64,000 nucleotides of DNA from Staphylococcus sp. MI 10-1553 (GTDB lineage Bacteria > Bacillota > Bacilli > Staphylococcales > Staphylococcaceae). This document shows positions 1 through 14,336 of the stretch, piece after piece (position 1 is the stretch's first letter; the number at the start of each line of letters is the position of its first letter). The stretch spans positions 1,116,001-1,180,000 of the forward strand of contig NZ_CP048279.1 in assembly GCF_010365305.1 (NCBI RefSeq), in the 5' to 3' direction. The notes beneath the pieces are model-generated. The model searched no databases. It had not been told where the DNA came from and worked only from the letters and a program-made list of their open reading frames with translations. The position numbers and the translations under genes are program-made.

Positions 1-1194
1 AATATCTCATCATTTACAAAAACAAATGATGTATATTGGGCTATGGATGAACATAATTTTAGCTTAGAAGAAGTAGTGAATAAATTAATTGAGTTGTCTA
101 AAATGTTCAATATACAAGCAATTACAACAAATAATGAACTATTTGTTGAGCCAGTAGCTGTGGCTAGTAAAAAGTTGGATTTAAAAGGTGCGGGGTCAAA
201 AGGCGCGAAAAATGCAAGGGATAAATTTTTGATGAGGCAATGTTTTAATAATTCGAAAGCTAGGACGGTTAATTGCAAAAAAGTAGATGATCTTAATGAC
301 TTAATTATTGCCTCAAAAGAATTAGGATTCCCCTTTATATTGAAACCAACATACTTAGCCAGCTCTTTGGGTGTAACTTTGTTCAAGGATAGTAGCGAGT
401 TAGAGCAAAAATTTAATGAATTAAAAAAGTTTGTAGATACTCTTACTGTTCCAAAATCGGTTAAGCCATCATGTATATTCATAGCTGAAGAGTATTTAGT
501 AGGAAATTCTAGCGAATGGTATGGTGTGGAAGGGTATGGGGACTATGTAAGTATAGAAGGAATAATGAAAGATGGTCAATACTATCCCATAGCTATAACA
601 GATAAATCACCTCAGATAGGATTTACTGAAACTTCACATATTAGCACAAGTGTATTAAGCGCAGATAAGCAAAAATTAATTATTGAAGCTGCAAAATATG
701 CAAATGAAAGCTTAGATTTGGAAAACTGTGCTACTCATACAGAAATGAAACTGCTTCCTAATTTAGAAGTTGGTTTGATTGAAACAGCTGCTCGTTATGG
801 TGGTTGGAATATAATTCCTAATACATCTAAAGTTCTTGATATTAATTATCCAAAACTACTAATAGATGTACTTACTTCAAATGTAAGTGATCAATATCTA
901 GAAAATATAATAGCCAAAAAACCAAAAAAATTTATTTCTGATTTTCATATTTACCTAAAAGATGGTGAAAATGTAAATACAGATATTATATTTGAAGGCT
1001 TAGAAGATACAAGTCAATATATCAATCAAGATGTGAAAGTTAATAAATATGATGAGATACCTAAAAAGACAATTCTTAAATATGAAGATTTTACTGCATT
1101 TAATAGTGTTGCTTTTTATGAATTAGAGAGTGCAAATAGTAATTCATTAGTACAGACTATTAATAATATTAGAAAGAATATTAATTTTAAATGA
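1..1194 (+). CDS. bacD: BacD-like L-amino-acid ligase (ATP-grasp), 5' partial
   Basis: The reading frame is open from base 1, so the gene starts left of the window; the ATG at 43 is internal. The protein matches what I know of Bacillus BacD, which joins L-alanine to anticapsin to make the dipeptide antibiotic bacilysin. Shared blocks are VYWA..DHN, AITTNNELF, GAG...NARDK, ILKPTYLASS(L/I)GVTL, the IAEE motif, SIEGIM, IGFTETSHI, and NCATHTE followed by a LIE(T/S)AAR block holding metal/ATP-binding acidic residues. By comparison with the 472-residue BacD about 70 N-terminal residues are missing. The next gene, an exporter, starts 12 bases after the stop, behind AGGTGAT. Base composition is far more A+T-rich than in the core genes from 4.5 kb on. 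The family call is firm; the exact dipeptide product is unknown. Confidence 0.88.
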   Translation, partial: NISSFTKTNDVYWAMDEHNFSLEEVVNKLIELSKMFNIQAITTNNELFVEPVAVASKKLDLKGAGSKGAKNARDKFLMRQCFNNSKARTVNCKKVDDLNDLIIASKELGFPFILKPTYLASSLGVTLFKDSSELEQKFNELKKFVDTLTVPKSVKPSCIFIAEEYLVGNSSEWYGVEGYGDYVSIEGIMKDGQYYPIAITDKSPQIGFTETSHISTSVLSADKQKLIIEAAKYANESLDLENCATHTEMKLLPNLEVGLIETAARYGGWNIIPNTSKVLDINYPKLLIDVLTSNVSDQYLENIIAKKPKKFISDFHIYLKDGENVNTDIIFEGLEDTSQYINQDVKVNKYDEIPKKTILKYEDFTAFNSVAFYELESANSNSLVQTINNIRKNINFK

Positions 1195-1206
1195 GTAGGT
1201 GATTAA

Positions 1207-2346
1207 ATGAAATATAATTCAAGGAATATGCTTTGGGGACAATCTTTGTCTTTTATGGGTGATTATTGTATACTTCCAGCATTACTCATTATGTCAACTT
1301 ACTATGAAAATAAATGGATGACTTCTGGTGTGGTTATTGCCAGGAGTCTTCCCCTAATTATTCAGCCATTCGTTGGTCATTTTATTGATAGGATGGATAA
1401 AATAAAAATTATGGTTATAACAGACATAATCAGAGCTATATTATTTTCTATACTATTGGTAATACCATTAGGTGAAAATCCTATTCTATTTATATCCATA
1501 CTGTTTCTATCGTATTTTGCGGGTATATTTTTTAATCCAAGTAGACTTGCGACCATGTCTCTACTAGGTGAGGATATTAAAATAGTTAATATATTATTTG
1601 CACGCTATACATGTGTATTTATAACTGTTGGAGCATTATTAGGTGTATTATTTGTCTATATTGGTAACATAAAGTTATCAATTTTGCTTAATGTAATAAC
1701 ATTTTTAATTTCAGCTTTTTTTCTATACAATATTAAAATACCAAAAACAAAAAATAGAATTGAGTCGATAACTTCTAGGGAATTATTTAAGGGGTTTAGC
1801 CATATTGTAAATAATAAATATATATTTAATGCTATATATACTATGTTTTTAATGGCATTAATGTGGGGGATTATATATAGTTGGTTTCCCATTATTGGTA
1901 GTAAATTAGATGAAGATATAGGAACTTTTCTAATAACTATAGCTATTGGAATTGGTGGTTTATTTGGATCTATAATTGTCTCTAAAATTGGGTTTAATTC
2001 TAAAAAAGGTATCATATTATTTTCACTATTTAGTATTGGATCGTTATTATTTTTTATATTAAGTCCAAATTTTTTGGTTGGGTTTTTAACGGCTATAATA
2101 TTTTTCGCTAGTATGGAGTATGGTGAAGTAATTGCAAAGGTAAATGTTCAAGAAAATGCGGAAAGTATTTATCAAGGTAGAATATTTTCTGTTTCGGAAT
2201 CTATAATAGGGATTTCTATTTCAATGGGTTCTATTCTGATAAATATATTTACGACTAAAATAGTAAGTATAATGGTTGTAATATTAGTGTTATTTTATTT
2301 AGTAAATTCAATCATTATATATAGAGAGAAGATTATAAATGAATAA
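1207..2346 (+). CDS. bacE: BacE-like MFS efflux transporter
   Basis: A 379-residue polytopic membrane protein of the major facilitator superfamily. It resembles Bacillus BacE, the bacilysin exporter and self-protection protein: the N-terminus carries GQSLSFMGDYC followed by LPALLIMSTYY, and later blocks are a FNPSRLA motif, MEYGEV(I/L)AKV, VQENA and QGRIFSV. About ten to twelve hydrophobic segments are visible. The start has AGGTGATTAA before the ATG. Its stop overlaps the next start by eight bases, so ligase, exporter and aminotransferase appear to form one transcription unit. Unlike the next two genes it is intact, so it could still give resistance if the pathway is dead. Confidence 0.85.
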   Translation: MKYNSRNMLWGQSLSFMGDYCILPALLIMSTYYENKWMTSGVVIARSLPLIIQPFVGHFIDRMDKIKIMVITDIIRAILFSILLVIPLGENPILFISILFLSYFAGIFFNPSRLATMSLLGEDIKIVNILFARYTCVFITVGALLGVLFVYIGNIKLSILLNVITFLISAFFLYNIKIPKTKNRIESITSRELFKGFSHIVNNKYIFNAIYTMFLMALMWGIIYSWFPIIGSKLDEDIGTFLITIAIGIGGLFGSIIVSKIGFNSKKGIILFSLFSIGSLLFFILSPNFLVGFLTAIIFFASMEYGEVIAKVNVQENAESIYQGRIFSVSESIIGISISMGSILINIFTTKIVSIMVVILVLFYLVNSIIIYREKIINE

Positions 2347-3479
2347 TTTAACATTTTCTGACTATTTTTATGAGATATCTTCAACTTCTTATGATGGAGA
2401 AAAAAAATTAATAAATTTAGGACAGGGTAATCCACATATTAATATTGAAAAAGAAGCATTGCAGTTGCTTAAAAGATTAATAGACAATCCTAAATCACAT
2501 ATATATCCTCAAGCAAGTGATGAGAATATATTAAGAGAATCTTTAATGAAAAGGTATAATAGCTTATATAATATAAATATAACTACCTAAAGATATAACA
2601 ATAGTTAGTGGAGCTAAAAAAGCATTTTACTTAATATGTAATGTTTTATTGGACGACAGATCTAAAGTTTTACTTATAGATCCAGCATATCCTGATTATC
2701 AGAGAGCTATATTAAATTTCACTCAAAATATATATAAATTAGATGCCAATAATAGACTACCTAATGTATCTGATATTGAAGAAATGGTGAGATCTAAAGG
2801 AATAAACGTCATTATTTTTAACTATCCTAATAATCCAACAGGTACAATAGCTAATACAGATTTTTGGGAAAGAGTTCATAATTTATCAAAAATATATAAC
2901 TTAAAAATAATAAATGACTTTACATATAGTGACTATGTCTATACAGATACATCTAGCAGTATGTTTAGTTCTTTAAATAATGTAAGCAATGATTATATGT
3001 ATGAAATTTATTCATTTTCAAAGAATTTTACTATTCCTGGATGGCGAATAGCAGCAATAATATGCTCACAAAGAAATATAGAAAAAATTAATTTTTTAAA
3101 CAATATAATGGAATCTGGGATATTCACACCAATGATTATAACTCTCAATCAAATGATCTTATCTAATCAAAAAAGAGTAAAAGTTAGTTTATACCATAAG
3201 AAAGCTAAGTTACTTTGTAAGAAAATACAAACACTAACAAATTGGGAATGTAGTGTACCTGATAGTGGAATGTTTCTATGGATAAAATTAAAAAATATTA
3301 ATTCTTGGGAATTTTTTAAGGAAAAGATGGAAAATGAGAATTTAATTATATTACCAGGTATACTGTATGGTGAAAAATATATTAATTTTATAAGATTATC
3401 ACTAAATTTTAATTTACACGAAATAGATGAAATTATCACTAGATTAGTAAATGGAGAAAAATATGATGAGATTAGCTAA
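2339..3479 (+). pseudogene. bacF: BacF-like PLP aminotransferase, frameshifted
   Basis: A class I/II fold-type I aminotransferase split over two frames. The first part (2339-2590) holds INLGQGNP and stops at TAA 2588. The second frame picks up at once with PKDITIVSGAKKAFYL and runs to 3479, carrying the conserved NYPNNPTG block, the PLP-lysine block SFSKNF followed by PGWR, and the C-terminal IRLS. Skipping one base near 2585 restores a continuous protein of about 379 residues, so the gene has one extra base (or two lost). This corresponds to BacF, which transaminates the anticapsin precursor. The frameshift is not in a homopolymer, so a genuine mutation is plausible, but a sequencing error cannot be excluded. 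A low level of ribosomal frameshifting is another possibility without visible support. Confidence 0.8.
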
Positions 3480-3695
3480 TATGAGAGAGAAAATAAATGA
3501 AATAGATGAGGGTATAATTCATTTGCTGAATGAAAGAATGAATATATCCAAGATGATTGGAATAGAAAAAAAGATAATAATATTAAAGTGGAAGGTAGAT
3601 TTAGGGAAGATGCTATTATTGAAAAGCTTTTAAATATTAATAACTTAGATGATGATTTTATTAAAGATATCTATAAAGTCTTATTCAAATGTTAA
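3463..3695 (+). pseudogene. AroQ-type chorismate mutase, frameshifted and cut by IS end
   Basis: The N-terminal half reads MREKINEIDEGIIHLLNERM, the typical AroQ helix with Arg/Asp/Glu contacts, then ISKMIGIEKK. The frame is lost in a run of seven A at 3566-3572. With eight A the protein continues as DNNIKVEGRFREDAIIEKLL to a stop at 3693, matching the second half of the domain (RE..II..L). GGAG at 3453 favours the ATG at 3463, inside the end of the aminotransferase gene. The enzyme turns chorismate into prephenate, the precursor of bacilysin's anticapsin, which fits the neighbours. The last codons TGT TAA seem to belong to an IS21-type end, so the original C-terminus is probably lost. Homopolymer slippage could partly rescue expression. 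Confidence 0.72.
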
Positions 3696-3858
3696 TAGCG
3701 GTTTGAATATGATGTTTTATGGCGGTTTGAAAATGTCGTTTTTTAGCGGTTTAAGAATGATGTATGTTTAAACTTTTTGCGCTTTTATAATCTTTAAGTC
3801 GGTATGAATCCCCTGTTATTTTAAATATTTTTGAATGATGAATGAGTCTATCAATTTA
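3690..3858 (-). mobile_element. IS21-family end with istB 3' relic
   Basis: Reverse-strand bases 3858 to 3751 translate as IDRLIHHSKIFKITGDSYRL then KDYKSAKSLN and a stop at 3751. This is the characteristic C-terminus of IstB, the ATPase helper of IS21-family transposases. Between it and the chorismate mutase lie three repeats of AGCGGTTTGAATATGATG type at 3697, 3721 and 3745, spaced exactly 24 bases apart. IS21 elements are known to carry multiple terminal repeats. An in-frame stop precedes the relic and no istA is present, so the element is dead and mostly deleted. Confidence 0.7.
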
Positions 3859-4046: not shown

Positions 4047-4154
4047 ATACATAGATTAAAATAATATTGATTTAATTTAGTGAAATATTTTGATGAATCT
4101 TATATCAGAACTAGCTTTCATTTGGTGTATTTGATGGCATGTTGCCTAATGGCT

Positions 4155-4420
4155 GAGACTCCTGAGGGATAAATCAAAGGCTTAAATGTGGTTTCTGATT
4201 ATTAACAGAGACTACTGTTTAACGCAGTAGCTGCCTGACTTCTCAATGCTCGTGCTTTTGAGAAGTCTAGTCAGCCTTGCGGGGGCAGTACTACGAAATC
4301 TTTGTTACACATGAGATTTCTGTACTGCTCCCGAAAATCCAATTTGCCTTCACTTTAATTTATCAAACTTAGGCAAATCTAGTTGAAGCTTCAGCGCCTC
4401 GGAGAGCGAAGTCATAATGG
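4155..4420 (+). repeat. Structured dispersed repeat, copy A
   Basis: One of four copies (others 16524-16782, 23730-23994, 30743-31004). It starts GAGACTCCTGAGGGATAAA and contains GACTTCTCAA paired with TTGAGAAGTC, then CAGCCTTGCGGGGGCAGTAC with a long hairpin closing on GTACTGC, then a stem of TTTGCCT with AGGCAAA, and ends near CGCCTCGGAGAGCGAAG. It lies downstream of the FUSC gene on the minus strand. It has no coding potential. I do not recognise a named family. Confidence 0.75.
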
Positions 4421-4503
4421 TAATCATGAAAATCAAAATTGTTATGAGAGCAATTGCAGAAATATGAAACGTAAGATCATATAAATTTTTTATATCAACG
4501 CTG

Positions 4504-9889: not shown

Positions 9890-11236
9890 TTAATCTTTTG
9901 TTGTTTTAATATGCTTTGAACGACCTGTATTCGTGCGTTCGACTTCTTCTGGTTCTTTGTATTGTGGTGCACGGTTTGTTGACGTTGTAGCTTCATGTTG
10001 TTCATGTATTGACTTAGAATCCGTGTCTTGTGCTTTATCGATATGGTGCGTGTCGTTCGTTTCTTTACGATCATCCACTTGTTTGTCTTCTTTTTCACCA
10101 TAGTTATTATGCGCTTCGGCTAACGCTTCTTCATCTTGAGCTTCAAGTTCATCATATGTTTCTTCTTCAGGTGTTTTTCCTTTAATGACTTTACGTTGAT
10201 GAACAATAGCGTTGATTTCAGCACCAATAATTAAAATAAAGCCAGTGATGTACAACCATAACATTAAGACGATAACGCCTCCGATACTGCCATATGTTTT
10301 AGAGTAGTTGGCAAAGTTTGATACGTAAAAACCAAATGCCAATGAACCTACAATCCATACAATCGTTGAGAACAGGGAACCAGGAATAACAGATTTAAAT
10401 CTAATTTTCACATTTGGTGCTAGTGTATAAATAATTGTAAAGACAATAAGTACAGCTAATACAGGAAGGGCAGTACGTAACAGGCTAAAGACCCAACGGA
10501 CTTGCTCGTCAAGGCCTAATGGTCCGAATAATAAGTTACCGATTTGCTCACCAAACGTAAATAAGACGAGTGTGAGTGGTAATGTCATACCAATTAATAA
10601 TGTGAAGAAAATAGCTAACAATTTCGATACGACAAAGTTACGACTATCTTCTACATCATAAGCGACGTTAAAAGCGTTCATCATCGCAGTCATCCCATTA
10701 GATGCTGTCCACAATGCTAAGATCAACCCGACTGAGAGTAGACCACCACTTGCATTACCCATGACATCATCAATAATACCCGTAATGATGGAAGCCGTTT
10801 CTGCAGGTGCATTGTTTGAAATTTGTGCTGTAATCGTATCGCGATCAATGTTAAAGAGCGGTACGAGTGATAAGATGAAAATCAACATTGGGAATAGCGA
10901 CAACATAAAATAATAAGCGAGTTGTGCGGCTAATCCAGATGCATCATCTTTTCCGATACGATAAATTAAATAGCTAAAAAAGCTCGGACGATCCGTATAT
11001 TTGGCTGGTTTGTTAATTCTTGAAACGAAAAATGTTTGATTTTCTTTTGGCGCTTCTTTAGATTGAAACGGTTGAGGCTTTACGAATTTGTGTTTTTTGT
11101 CCGTTTCACCTGTAGCATCTCCTTTTCGATCAGGAGAGGGCGCTTCTTCTTTTTGATTTTGATCATTATCGTCATTAGAAATTGTATTTTTGATTTTATC
11201 AATGAAGCCTTCTGACTGTTGTTCGTTTTTAGACAT
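9890..11236 (-). CDS. YihY/BrkB-family membrane protein with acidic tail
   Basis: A 448-residue membrane protein of the YihY/virulence-factor BrkB family (once misnamed ribonuclease BN). About 90 charged, disordered N-terminal residues precede six hydrophobic segments with the family signatures LAYYFMLSLFPMLIF, ALWTASNGM and YGSIGGVIVLMLWLYITGF. After about residue 350 comes a low-complexity Glu/Asp/Lys/Thr tail. Function is unknown across the family. The gene follows the hairpin at 11262-11312 and precedes carbonic anhydrase on the same strand. Confidence 0.82.
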   Translation of the reverse strand: MSKNEQQSEGFIDKIKNTISNDDNDQNQKEEAPSPDRKGDATGETDKKHKFVKPQPFQSKEAPKENQTFFVSRINKPAKYTDRPSFFSYLIYRIGKDDASGLAAQLAYYFMLSLFPMLIFILSLVPLFNIDRDTITAQISNNAPAETASIITGIIDDVMGNASGGLLSVGLILALWTASNGMTAMMNAFNVAYDVEDSRNFVVSKLLAIFFTLLIGMTLPLTLVLFTFGEQIGNLLFGPLGLDEQVRWVFSLLRTALPVLAVLIVFTIIYTLAPNVKIRFKSVIPGSLFSTIVWIVGSLAFGFYVSNFANYSKTYGSIGGVIVLMLWLYITGFILIIGAEINAIVHQRKVIKGKTPEEETYDELEAQDEEALAEAHNNYGEKEDKQVDDRKETNDTHHIDKAQDTDSKSIHEQHEATTSTNRAPQYKEPEEVERTNTGRSKHIKTTKD

Positions 11237-12563: not shown

Positions 12564-13796
12564 ATGACAATTGAGAAACGATTACAACAATATGCTAAAT
12601 TACTCGTACGTGTAGGGATGAACGTACAACAAGGTCAACCTGTATATATTCGTACATCTGTAGAAACTGTTGACTTCACACGTTTAATTGTAAAAGAAGC
12701 TTATGCAGCAGGGGCATCAGATGTAAGAGTGAAATATGAGGATCCTCAAGTTAAGCGTCTGACATACGAAAATGAGCCGACATCATTTTTTGAACAAGAG
12801 GTCAAAGGCTATGATGTGGATGAACGCATGGATTACGTGAACCGTGGTGCATGTATGCTAGCGTTGTTATCAGAAGATCCAGATTTGTTGAATGGCATTG
12901 ATTCTGACAAATTAAAGGCGGCACAACGTCAATACGCAAAAGCTTTTAAACCTTATATGATTGCAGCACAAAAAAATAGTTTCCCGTGGCTTGTAGCAAG
13001 TTATCCTTCTCAAGCATGGGCAAACCGTGTGTATCCTGAGTTAAATGATGAAGAAGCGATGGCGCGATTTTTAGAAGATATTTTAAGTATTGTACGCGTT
13101 GATGGCAATGACCCAATCGAAAACTGGGAAAAGCATGCGAAAAACTTAAAATCACGTGCTGCGATGTTAAATGACAGAGCTTATACAGCGTTTCATTTCG
13201 TTTCAGAAGGGACGGACTTACATATTGGCTTACCAAAAGGCCATATTTGGGAAGAACCGATGAGCTATACAGAAAAAGGGCAAGGCTTTATTGCTAACAT
13301 TCCAACTGAAGAAGTGTTCACTGCACCTGATTGCAACAACGTAAACGGCTATGTCACAAATAAATTACCGCTCAGTTATAATGGCACAATTATTGACGGT
13401 TTCACATTGACGTTTAAAGATGGTGCTGTTGTTGATTTTGAAGCAGCACAAGGAGAAGCAGTTTTAGCGGATTTACTCGATACAGACGAAGGTGCACGTC
13501 GTTTAGGTGAGGTCGCATTAGTGCCAGATGATTCACCGATTTCAAATAAAAACACTATTTTCTTTAATACATTGTTTGATGAAAATGCATCGTGCCATAT
13601 CGCTTTAGGTGCCGCATATGCGTTTAATTTGCAAGGCGGGACTGAAATGACGGCAGAAGAACTGAAAGCCCACGGTTTGAACGATTCTTTAACACATGTG
13701 GACTTTATGATTGGTAGTAGTGATCTTAATATTTACGGCGTACTTGAGGATGGTACAGAAGAACAAGTATTTAAAGATGGAAATTGGGTTAATTAA
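12564..13796 (+). CDS. ampS: M29-family aminopeptidase AmpS
   Basis: A 410-residue thermophilic-metalloprotease (M29) aminopeptidase. The family's metal ligands are in the C-terminal half: Glu in [10 protein letters not shown], Glu and His in the [11 protein letters not shown] region, and His/Asp in LTHVDFMIG. It releases N-terminal residues from peptides in the cytosol. GGGGAGG precedes the ATG, and the length matches S. aureus AmpS. The thioesterase gene follows at 19 bases. Confidence 0.9.
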
Positions 13797-13814: not shown

Positions 13815-14336
13815 ATGGCAAAAATAGATAAAAAAGCGATGCAAGATTCGAAAGTTTATAAATCGAGACAAGTGTTTCCACAAGATACAAATCATCTCGG
13901 GACGTTGTTCGGTGGTACGATGATGGCAAATATTGATGAAATTGCGGCAATTTGTGCAATGAAACATGCGAATCAAACTGTCGTGACGGCTTCTACAGAT
14001 TCAGTAGACTTTTTAAAACCGATTCGTAACGGCGACATTTTAACGTATATCGCGATGGTTTCATATTCAGGTAGTTCATCAATGGAAGTTTGTGTTCAAA
14101 TTTTAATTGAAGATATTCCGAACAATAAGCAAGAGTTAGCAGCACTCAGCTTTTTAACTTTTGTAGCATTGGATGATGATGGAAAGCCAACACAGGTGCC
14201 TGCAGTATATCCTGAAACAGATGCAGAAAAATGGTTTCATGAAACAGCTGAAGCACGTGTGGCACGCCGAAAAGCACGTCGTAAAGAAAGTAAACAAACA
14301 CTGCAATTTATTTCAGAATTAGAATTTAAGCAATAA
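13815..14336 (+). CDS. Acyl-CoA thioesterase, hot-dog fold (YkhA-like)
   Basis: A 173-residue single hot-dog domain with the family block FPQDTNHLGTLFGGTMMANID, carrying the catalytic Asn/Asp region, and TASTDSVDFLKPIRNGD. It likely hydrolyses short- to medium-chain acyl-CoA. The C-terminus is basic (ARVARRKARRK). GAGGTGA precedes the ATG. Probably co-transcribed with ampS. Confidence 0.85.
   Translation: MAKIDKKAMQDSKVYKSRQVFPQDTNHLGTLFGGTMMANIDEIAAICAMKHANQTVVTASTDSVDFLKPIRNGDILTYIAMVSYSGSSSMEVCVQILIEDIPNNKQELAALSFLTFVALDDDGKPTQVPAVYPETDAEKWFHETAEARVARRKARRKESKQTLQFISELEFKQ

Follow-up and report, generated by a model that had tools for sequence, protein, structure and literature searches.

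The window, by which we mean the whole 64,000-nucleotide stretch analysed, comprises bases 1,116,001-1,180,000 of a single 2.9-Mb contig. Its positions 1-3695 hold the 3' half of a bacilysin-type (bac) cluster. The 5' half was read in a locus taken 15 kb leftward of the window (L002), in which the window position equals the L002 position minus 15000. With this extension the gene order, on the + strand, was bacG-bacA-(IS21)-bacB-bacC-bacD-bacE-bacF-chorismate mutase, and the following features were found:

L002 ~10065-10799, + strand: BacG-like short-chain reductase (Bac protein matches; PDB 3u49)
L002 10796 to ~11276, + strand: BacA-like prephenate-dehydratase-fold protein (PF00800; BacA relatives)
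L002 11473-13008 (istA) and 12998-13741 (istB): IS21 element, inside bacB
L002 ~13843-14059, + strand: last third of a BacB-like bicupin (Bac protein matches; PDB 3h7j)
L002 14061-14813, + strand: BacC-like short-chain dehydrogenase (Bac protein matches; PDB 5itv)
Window 1-1194, + strand: 3' part of a bacD-like alanine-anticapsin ligase gene (NF053745; PDB 3vmm; tree)
Window 1207-2346, + strand: intact bacE-like MFS exporter gene, 379 residues (48% identity to Bacillus BacE)
Window 2339-2590, + strand: 5' piece of a bacF-like aminotransferase gene, frame ending early (30% identity to Bacillus BacF residues 17-91)
Window 2592-3479, + strand: 3' piece of the same gene in another frame, first listed ATG/GTG/TTG start at 2649 (BacF identity; PDB 6l1l)
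Window 3451-3633, + strand: 5' piece of a chorismate mutase gene, AroQ type (PF01817 positions 1-31 of 80)
Window 3573-3695, + strand: 3' piece of the mutase gene in another frame (three-frame reading; own profile match; stretch open in the mutase P0053)
Window 3689-3855, + strand: remnant of another IS21-type element at the right edge of the island (93-94% identity to genomic copies)

The original prediction had described a unit of ligase, exporter, aminotransferase and mutase genes. These regions do lie on the + strand in that order, with a 12-base gap (1194/1207) and two overlaps (2339/2346 and 3451/3479), and their identities held. The unit itself is not intact: two of the four genes, those for the aminotransferase and the mutase, are broken, and the mutase does not form a single frame ending at 3695, since that end point spans a frameshift (3451-3633 versus a second frame to 3695). 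The proposed bacilysin-type identity was upheld by the leftward extension, in which bacA-, bacB- and bacC-like genes were all found upstream of the ligase gene, together with a bacG-like gene, and by the position of the ligase inside the BacD group.

The start of bacD lies upstream of the window, at L002 14791 (window -209) from the open reading frame or at L002 14806 (window -194) from a length of 462 residues. The best family for the protein was NF053745, alanine-anticapsin ligase (E 4e-166), with 553 bits, which is under the NCBI cut-off of 850 and indicates that the ligase is a clear but divergent BacD member. Its best PDB match was 3vmm (BacD; E 7e-140), and it is ~45-49% identical to most Bacillus BacD proteins. 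A quick tree with 45 rows placed the ligase, an S. saprophyticus protein and three other proteins in a group of five rows (support 100), nested in a 25-row group with Bacillus BacD (support 98). ATP-grasp enzymes of other kinds, among them those found in other staphylococci, fell outside the BacD group, in agreement with the predicted placement of the ligase. Three Paenibacillus-type proteins labelled BacD-like were also outside this group in the drawn tree, for which the program warned of long branches meeting.

The remaining products were compared directly with the Bac proteins of Rummeliibacillus and Bacillus mojavensis. BacG showed 32-33% identity to its Rummeliibacillus and Bacillus counterparts (residues 7-259 of 259 in Bacillus), with YwfH (3u49) as best PDB match (E 2e-38). 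A 31-residue open reading frame with a strong ribosome site is located immediately 5' of bacG. BacA was 38-45% identical over 158 residues, with 22-24 C-terminal residues missing; a PDB search with BacA gave no significant match, so that its assignment rests on PF00800 and on its BacA relatives. For BacB, identity (61%) was confined to 66 residues of the last third, beginning at residue 160 of 227, and the remnant best matched BacB in the PDB (3h7j; E 7e-29). BacC was 43-46% identical over its full length, and its best PDB match was dihydroanticapsin 7-dehydrogenase (5itv; E 3e-63). The identity of BacE to Bacillus BacE extended over 387 residues (4-390 of 393), and its closest named relative (57%) was from S. 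saprophyticus. Counterparts of BacD, BacA, BacC, BacG, BacE and BacF are present, BacA being truncated, BacG lacking a usual start and BacF lying in two frames.

The aminotransferase belongs to class I, and its open reading frames (2339-2590 and 2649-3479) are in different frames. The two pieces match residues 17-91 and 96-384 of one Bacillus BacF; the 3' piece is 22-26% identical to residues 96-384 or 96-385 of two Bacillus BacF proteins, and its best PDB chain was 6l1l, labelled 'Aminotransferase' (E 2e-26), which we take to be a Bacillus BacF. At 22-30% identity to Bacillus BacF, the gene could encode another transaminase of the same fold. This distance, the divergence of BacD, and the terminal mutase and bacG-first arrangement, which are unlike Bacillus, might reflect a different product, a related dipeptide or a non-proteinogenic amino acid made by a ligase of other specificity. 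Such a product seems improbable, as none of the seven bac genes is without a homologue or remnant in the cluster and the best family model of the ligase is that of the alanine-anticapsin ligase, though at a score below its cut-off.

The last gene of the cluster encodes a type II chorismate mutase by profile (PF01817); its first frame is lost in an A-rich stretch after position 31 of the profile. The mutase P0053, from one other contig, shares 90% identity with the cluster copy across 73% of the query, and its frame is open across the site where the cluster mutase breaks. In this protein search only two candidates shared words with the query, which makes it uninformative on the S. saprophyticus contig. 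The genome has a second mutase domain, full-length, in an intact 365-residue frame, presumably a DAHP synthase fusion, and PF01817 matches were found in 15 of the 18 BacD-bearing genomes searched.

A small model built from the cluster pieces, P0053 and two Tumebacillus mutases was used to search 24 other BacD loci (L023-L045 and L109) at E <= 1. A mutase near BacD was detected in one locus, that of Tumebacillus, and not in the other 23. The bac locus of Tumebacillus lacus DT12 (L038) resembles the Staphylococcus cluster in having a monofunctional chorismate mutase near the bac genes. There, the mutase, a DAHP synthase-mutase, a chorismate synthase, an aroB-like gene (named by eye) and an EPSP synthase precede bacA, and the bac order is A-B-G-C-D, unlike that of the Staphylococcus cluster. 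The Tumebacillus case mildly supports the suggestion that the mutase would provide a dedicated supply of prephenate; the 23 loci of 24 without a mutase and the frameshift in the cluster copy speak against it.

Only bacC, bacD and bacE are intact, their frames being open throughout. Followed back from L002 10065, the bacG frame reaches a stop at 10035-10037 without passing an ATG, GTG or TTG, and a possible BacG N-terminus was seen in another frame. BacB lacks ~160 N-terminal residues and BacA is ~22-24 residues short, which points to a deletion between bacA and bacB. The IS21 element is located at this site, with the 5-base repeat GCCTG on both sides, and has three other genomic copies, listed as 100% identical over 2482-2543 of 2561 query bases; the intact element was not found on plasmids, where a near mode search matched 3% of the query in two records. 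A few bases left of IS21 can be read as BacB codons, from which we infer that the deletion occurred first and was followed by a simple insertion. The frame of the aminotransferase changes at window ~2581-2592 and that of the mutase in an A-rich run at ~3566-3573. The frameshifts, the deletion and IS21 leave the pathway without intact reading frames throughout, and a working antibiotic operon was not supported, bacG, bacA, bacB, bacF and the mutase gene all being damaged. With A, B, F and G damaged, the strain should make no bacilysin by the bac route.

Frameshifts in A-rich runs can be sequencing errors, in which case the cluster might still work and the strain might make bacilysin: pieces of bacF and of the mutase gene are present on both sides of the frame changes, and the mutase frame is open in P0053. 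Base-calling errors cannot account for the deletion or for the 2.5-kb IS21, and the bacG-bacA part (L002 9587-11276) was not found a second time in the genome. The completeness rating of the genome, 100%, also speaks against an assembly with errors throughout. A working cluster is thus hardly credible.

The restriction of intact genes to bacC, bacD and bacE could also mean that production was lost and that bacE, with bacC and bacD by polarity, has been selected for protection from the bacilysin of neighbours. A comparable pattern occurs in Bacillus sp. V3-13, in which bacD and bacE are whole and bacC and bacF are fragments, as is bacA by eye. BacE is described as a host resistance determinant in a review (PMC9147277), and the bacilysin variant chlorotetain, from B. 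subtilis, is reported to kill S. epidermidis (PMC7413532). Four separable lesions would spare the C-D-E half by chance with a frequency of ~0.06 by length proportion, a weak departure; moreover, bacE is separated by IS21 from the promoter presumed to precede bacG, and after IS21 no promoter stood out, a scan giving 71 sites against a shuffle mean of 65.6, no excess. We consider selection for immunity rather unlikely, and put forward as a hypothesis that the retained BacE might protect the strain from bacilysin made by others.

The G+C content of the island without the insertion sequence was 27.3%, versus 38.1% for window positions 4501-64000, which bears out the A+T richness claimed for the cluster relative to the genes that follow. 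The left edge (L002 9586) lies inside a truncated ABC-transporter ATPase gene, a relative of which, elsewhere in the genome, continues past the edge and is 83% identical up to that base. At the right edge, the remnant consists of end repeats and the C-terminus of an istB-like frame, antisense and named by eye, its identity to the copies elsewhere in the genome extending over 166-167 bp. Concerning the insertion site, gatD and map were both present in 12 of 12 other genomes of the genus, among 20 relatives searched. The gatD-map interval was read in three genomes: it holds one gene only in G036 and G038, and additionally a lactococcin 972-type bacteriocin operon in G070, so that the site may take up antimicrobial genes.

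BacD was found in one of 84 genomes of the genus (counting the full-length own match only), in one of 157 genomes of the order, the other 156 giving no match at E <= 1e-60, and in seven of 398 genomes of the class (E <= 1e-80, own genome included). At E <= 0.001, 31 of the 84 genus genomes, with the own genome among them, gave ATP-grasp matches; those other than the own BacD were rejected as other enzymes, the best outside the own genome being 32% identical over residues 89-360. A BacD search of 72,556 plasmid records revealed no bac plasmid; the five records matched at E <= 1e-20 were all actinobacterial ATP-grasp enzymes with a query coverage of 53-60%. In viral contigs, a pattern search for BacD hit 45 stretches, none of which was confirmed. 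The 90% cluster of the own BacD has two member sequences, so there may be one more nearly identical protein. Across GTDB species genomes, a scan retrieved 42 BacD loci: in the 23 better ones (L023-L045) BacA was matched in 18 and BacE in 11 (1e-3), and the other 19 were weaker, mostly actinobacterial matches.

The composition, the absence from the other genomes of the order, the truncated gene at the left edge and the insertion sequence remnant at the right edge are all in line with the predicted horizontal acquisition. Considering the gene content and the lesions together, the locus is very probably a horizontally acquired bacilysin-type cluster, now decayed.

The nearest relatives of the cluster come from S. 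saprophyticus and from 'lgn' contigs (P0002-P0005 and P0045-P0048), with BacD 59-61% and BacE 56-60% identical. The longest contig is of 22,777 bases for both the BacD and the BacE of S. saprophyticus, which are probably encoded on the same contig. That the closest BacD and BacE are from these sources suggests a staphylococcal bac lineage. More tentatively, this lineage could be old and mobile, with a built-in mutase and possibly a secreted peptide switch, for which the 31-residue frame ahead of bacG would be the candidate, working copies existing in other staphylococci and only BacE immunity remaining here.

All seven genes of the B. subtilis-group bac operon (bacABCDEF and bacG) have homologues or remnants in the Staphylococcus cluster, and the A-B-C-D-E-F order is common to both. 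The bacG gene of the B. subtilis-group loci is found downstream, on the opposite strand, whereas here it comes first, on the same strand; the cluster also differs in the mutase gene after bacF and in that most of its genes are broken. Among the matches listed from literature titles and abstracts, with most subscription journals outside their scope, no bac cluster in Staphylococcus was found. In the accessible part of a survey of Bacillales (PMC5100339), B. subtilis, B. amyloliquefaciens and B. pumilus are given as bacilysin producers.

In the pathway review (PMC9147277), BacA decarboxylates prephenate, BacB isomerises, BacG reduces and BacF transaminates; anticapsin is then formed by BacC and coupled to alanine by BacD, and BacE serves for export and protection. 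From the family assignments and lesions, both read from sequence, we infer the chemistry, the product and the loss of production in the decayed cluster. The ancestral unit would have been bacG-bacA-bacB-bacC-bacD-bacE-bacF-chorismate mutase. By analogy with Bacillus, the mutase would have supplied prephenate for decarboxylation by BacA, BacB, BacG and BacF would have led to dihydroanticapsin, BacC would have oxidised this to anticapsin, and BacD would have joined anticapsin to L-alanine, with BacE exporting the product and protecting the cell. Synthesis would have been stopped by the bacA-bacB deletion, by IS21, and by the loss of the start or of the frame in bacG, bacF and the mutase gene, so that BacC, BacD and BacE are the only proteins that could still be made whole.

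Bacilysin is known from Bacillus and kills staphylococci. The presence of a bac cluster in Staphylococcus would imply present or past production of the dipeptide by some members of this genus, and the Staphylococcus cluster provides a testable case of the decay of an antibiotic cluster with its exporter kept. It also points to clusters with their own prephenate supply, which may be of use in finding or producing anticapsin-type compounds.

The chromosomal gatD-map site, which holds the bac island in Staphylococcus sp. MI 10-1553, is occupied in another member of the genus (G070) by a lactococcin 972-type bacteriocin operon (L096). In MI 10-1553, a broken DUF1430/ABC remnant was found at the same site, upstream of the window, at L002:6390-9586 (L002 includes 15 kb to the left of the window; window position equals L002 position minus 15000). 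This remnant resembles part of a lactococcin 972-type operon, and the bac island starts inside its ATPase gene. To the right of the island, window positions 4109-4455 form an intergenic repeat; of the first 40 matches listed, about 33 are partial copies at other places in the genome, so this number is a lower bound.

Broken bac genes may be common, since bacC appears as two ORFs in one Bacillus genome (L031) and bacD likewise in two others (L033 and L043). As a separate observation, the bac cluster of Bacillus sp. V3-13 (L028:8464-11894) has decayed too: bacD and bacE are whole, and fragments of other bac genes are present.

The following features were located ahead of bac genes:

L002:9935-10030, MI 10-1553: 31-residue ORF (MKMKLFF...NHLW) with a strong ribosome-binding site, immediately ahead of bacG
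L028:7320-8299, Bacillus sp. V3-13, divergent: regulator with helix-turn-helix and RNPP domains, upstream of bac genes
L109:4188-5549, one genome of the class, divergent: regulator with helix-turn-helix and TPR domains, upstream of bac genes
L038:926-6631, Tumebacillus lacus: mutase, DAHP synthase-mutase, chorismate synthase, aroB-like and EPSP synthase genes, ahead of the bac cluster

The two divergent regulators hint at control of the bac genes by peptide signalling, and the 31-residue ORF could encode a signal peptide or leader.

Four Paenibacillus loci (L039, L040, L042 and L044) carry divergent BacD-like ligases (34-39%) adjoining a second ATP-grasp enzyme; no bacA-C matches were found beside these ligases, and the loci perhaps represent a different dipeptide system. 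Genes resembling glmM and glmS, named by eye, flank the bac cluster of Rummeliibacillus suwonensis (L029:4112-15227); GlcN6P synthase is named as the anticapsin target in PMC7413532. The genes ahead of the Tumebacillus lacus bac cluster look like a dedicated shikimate supply.
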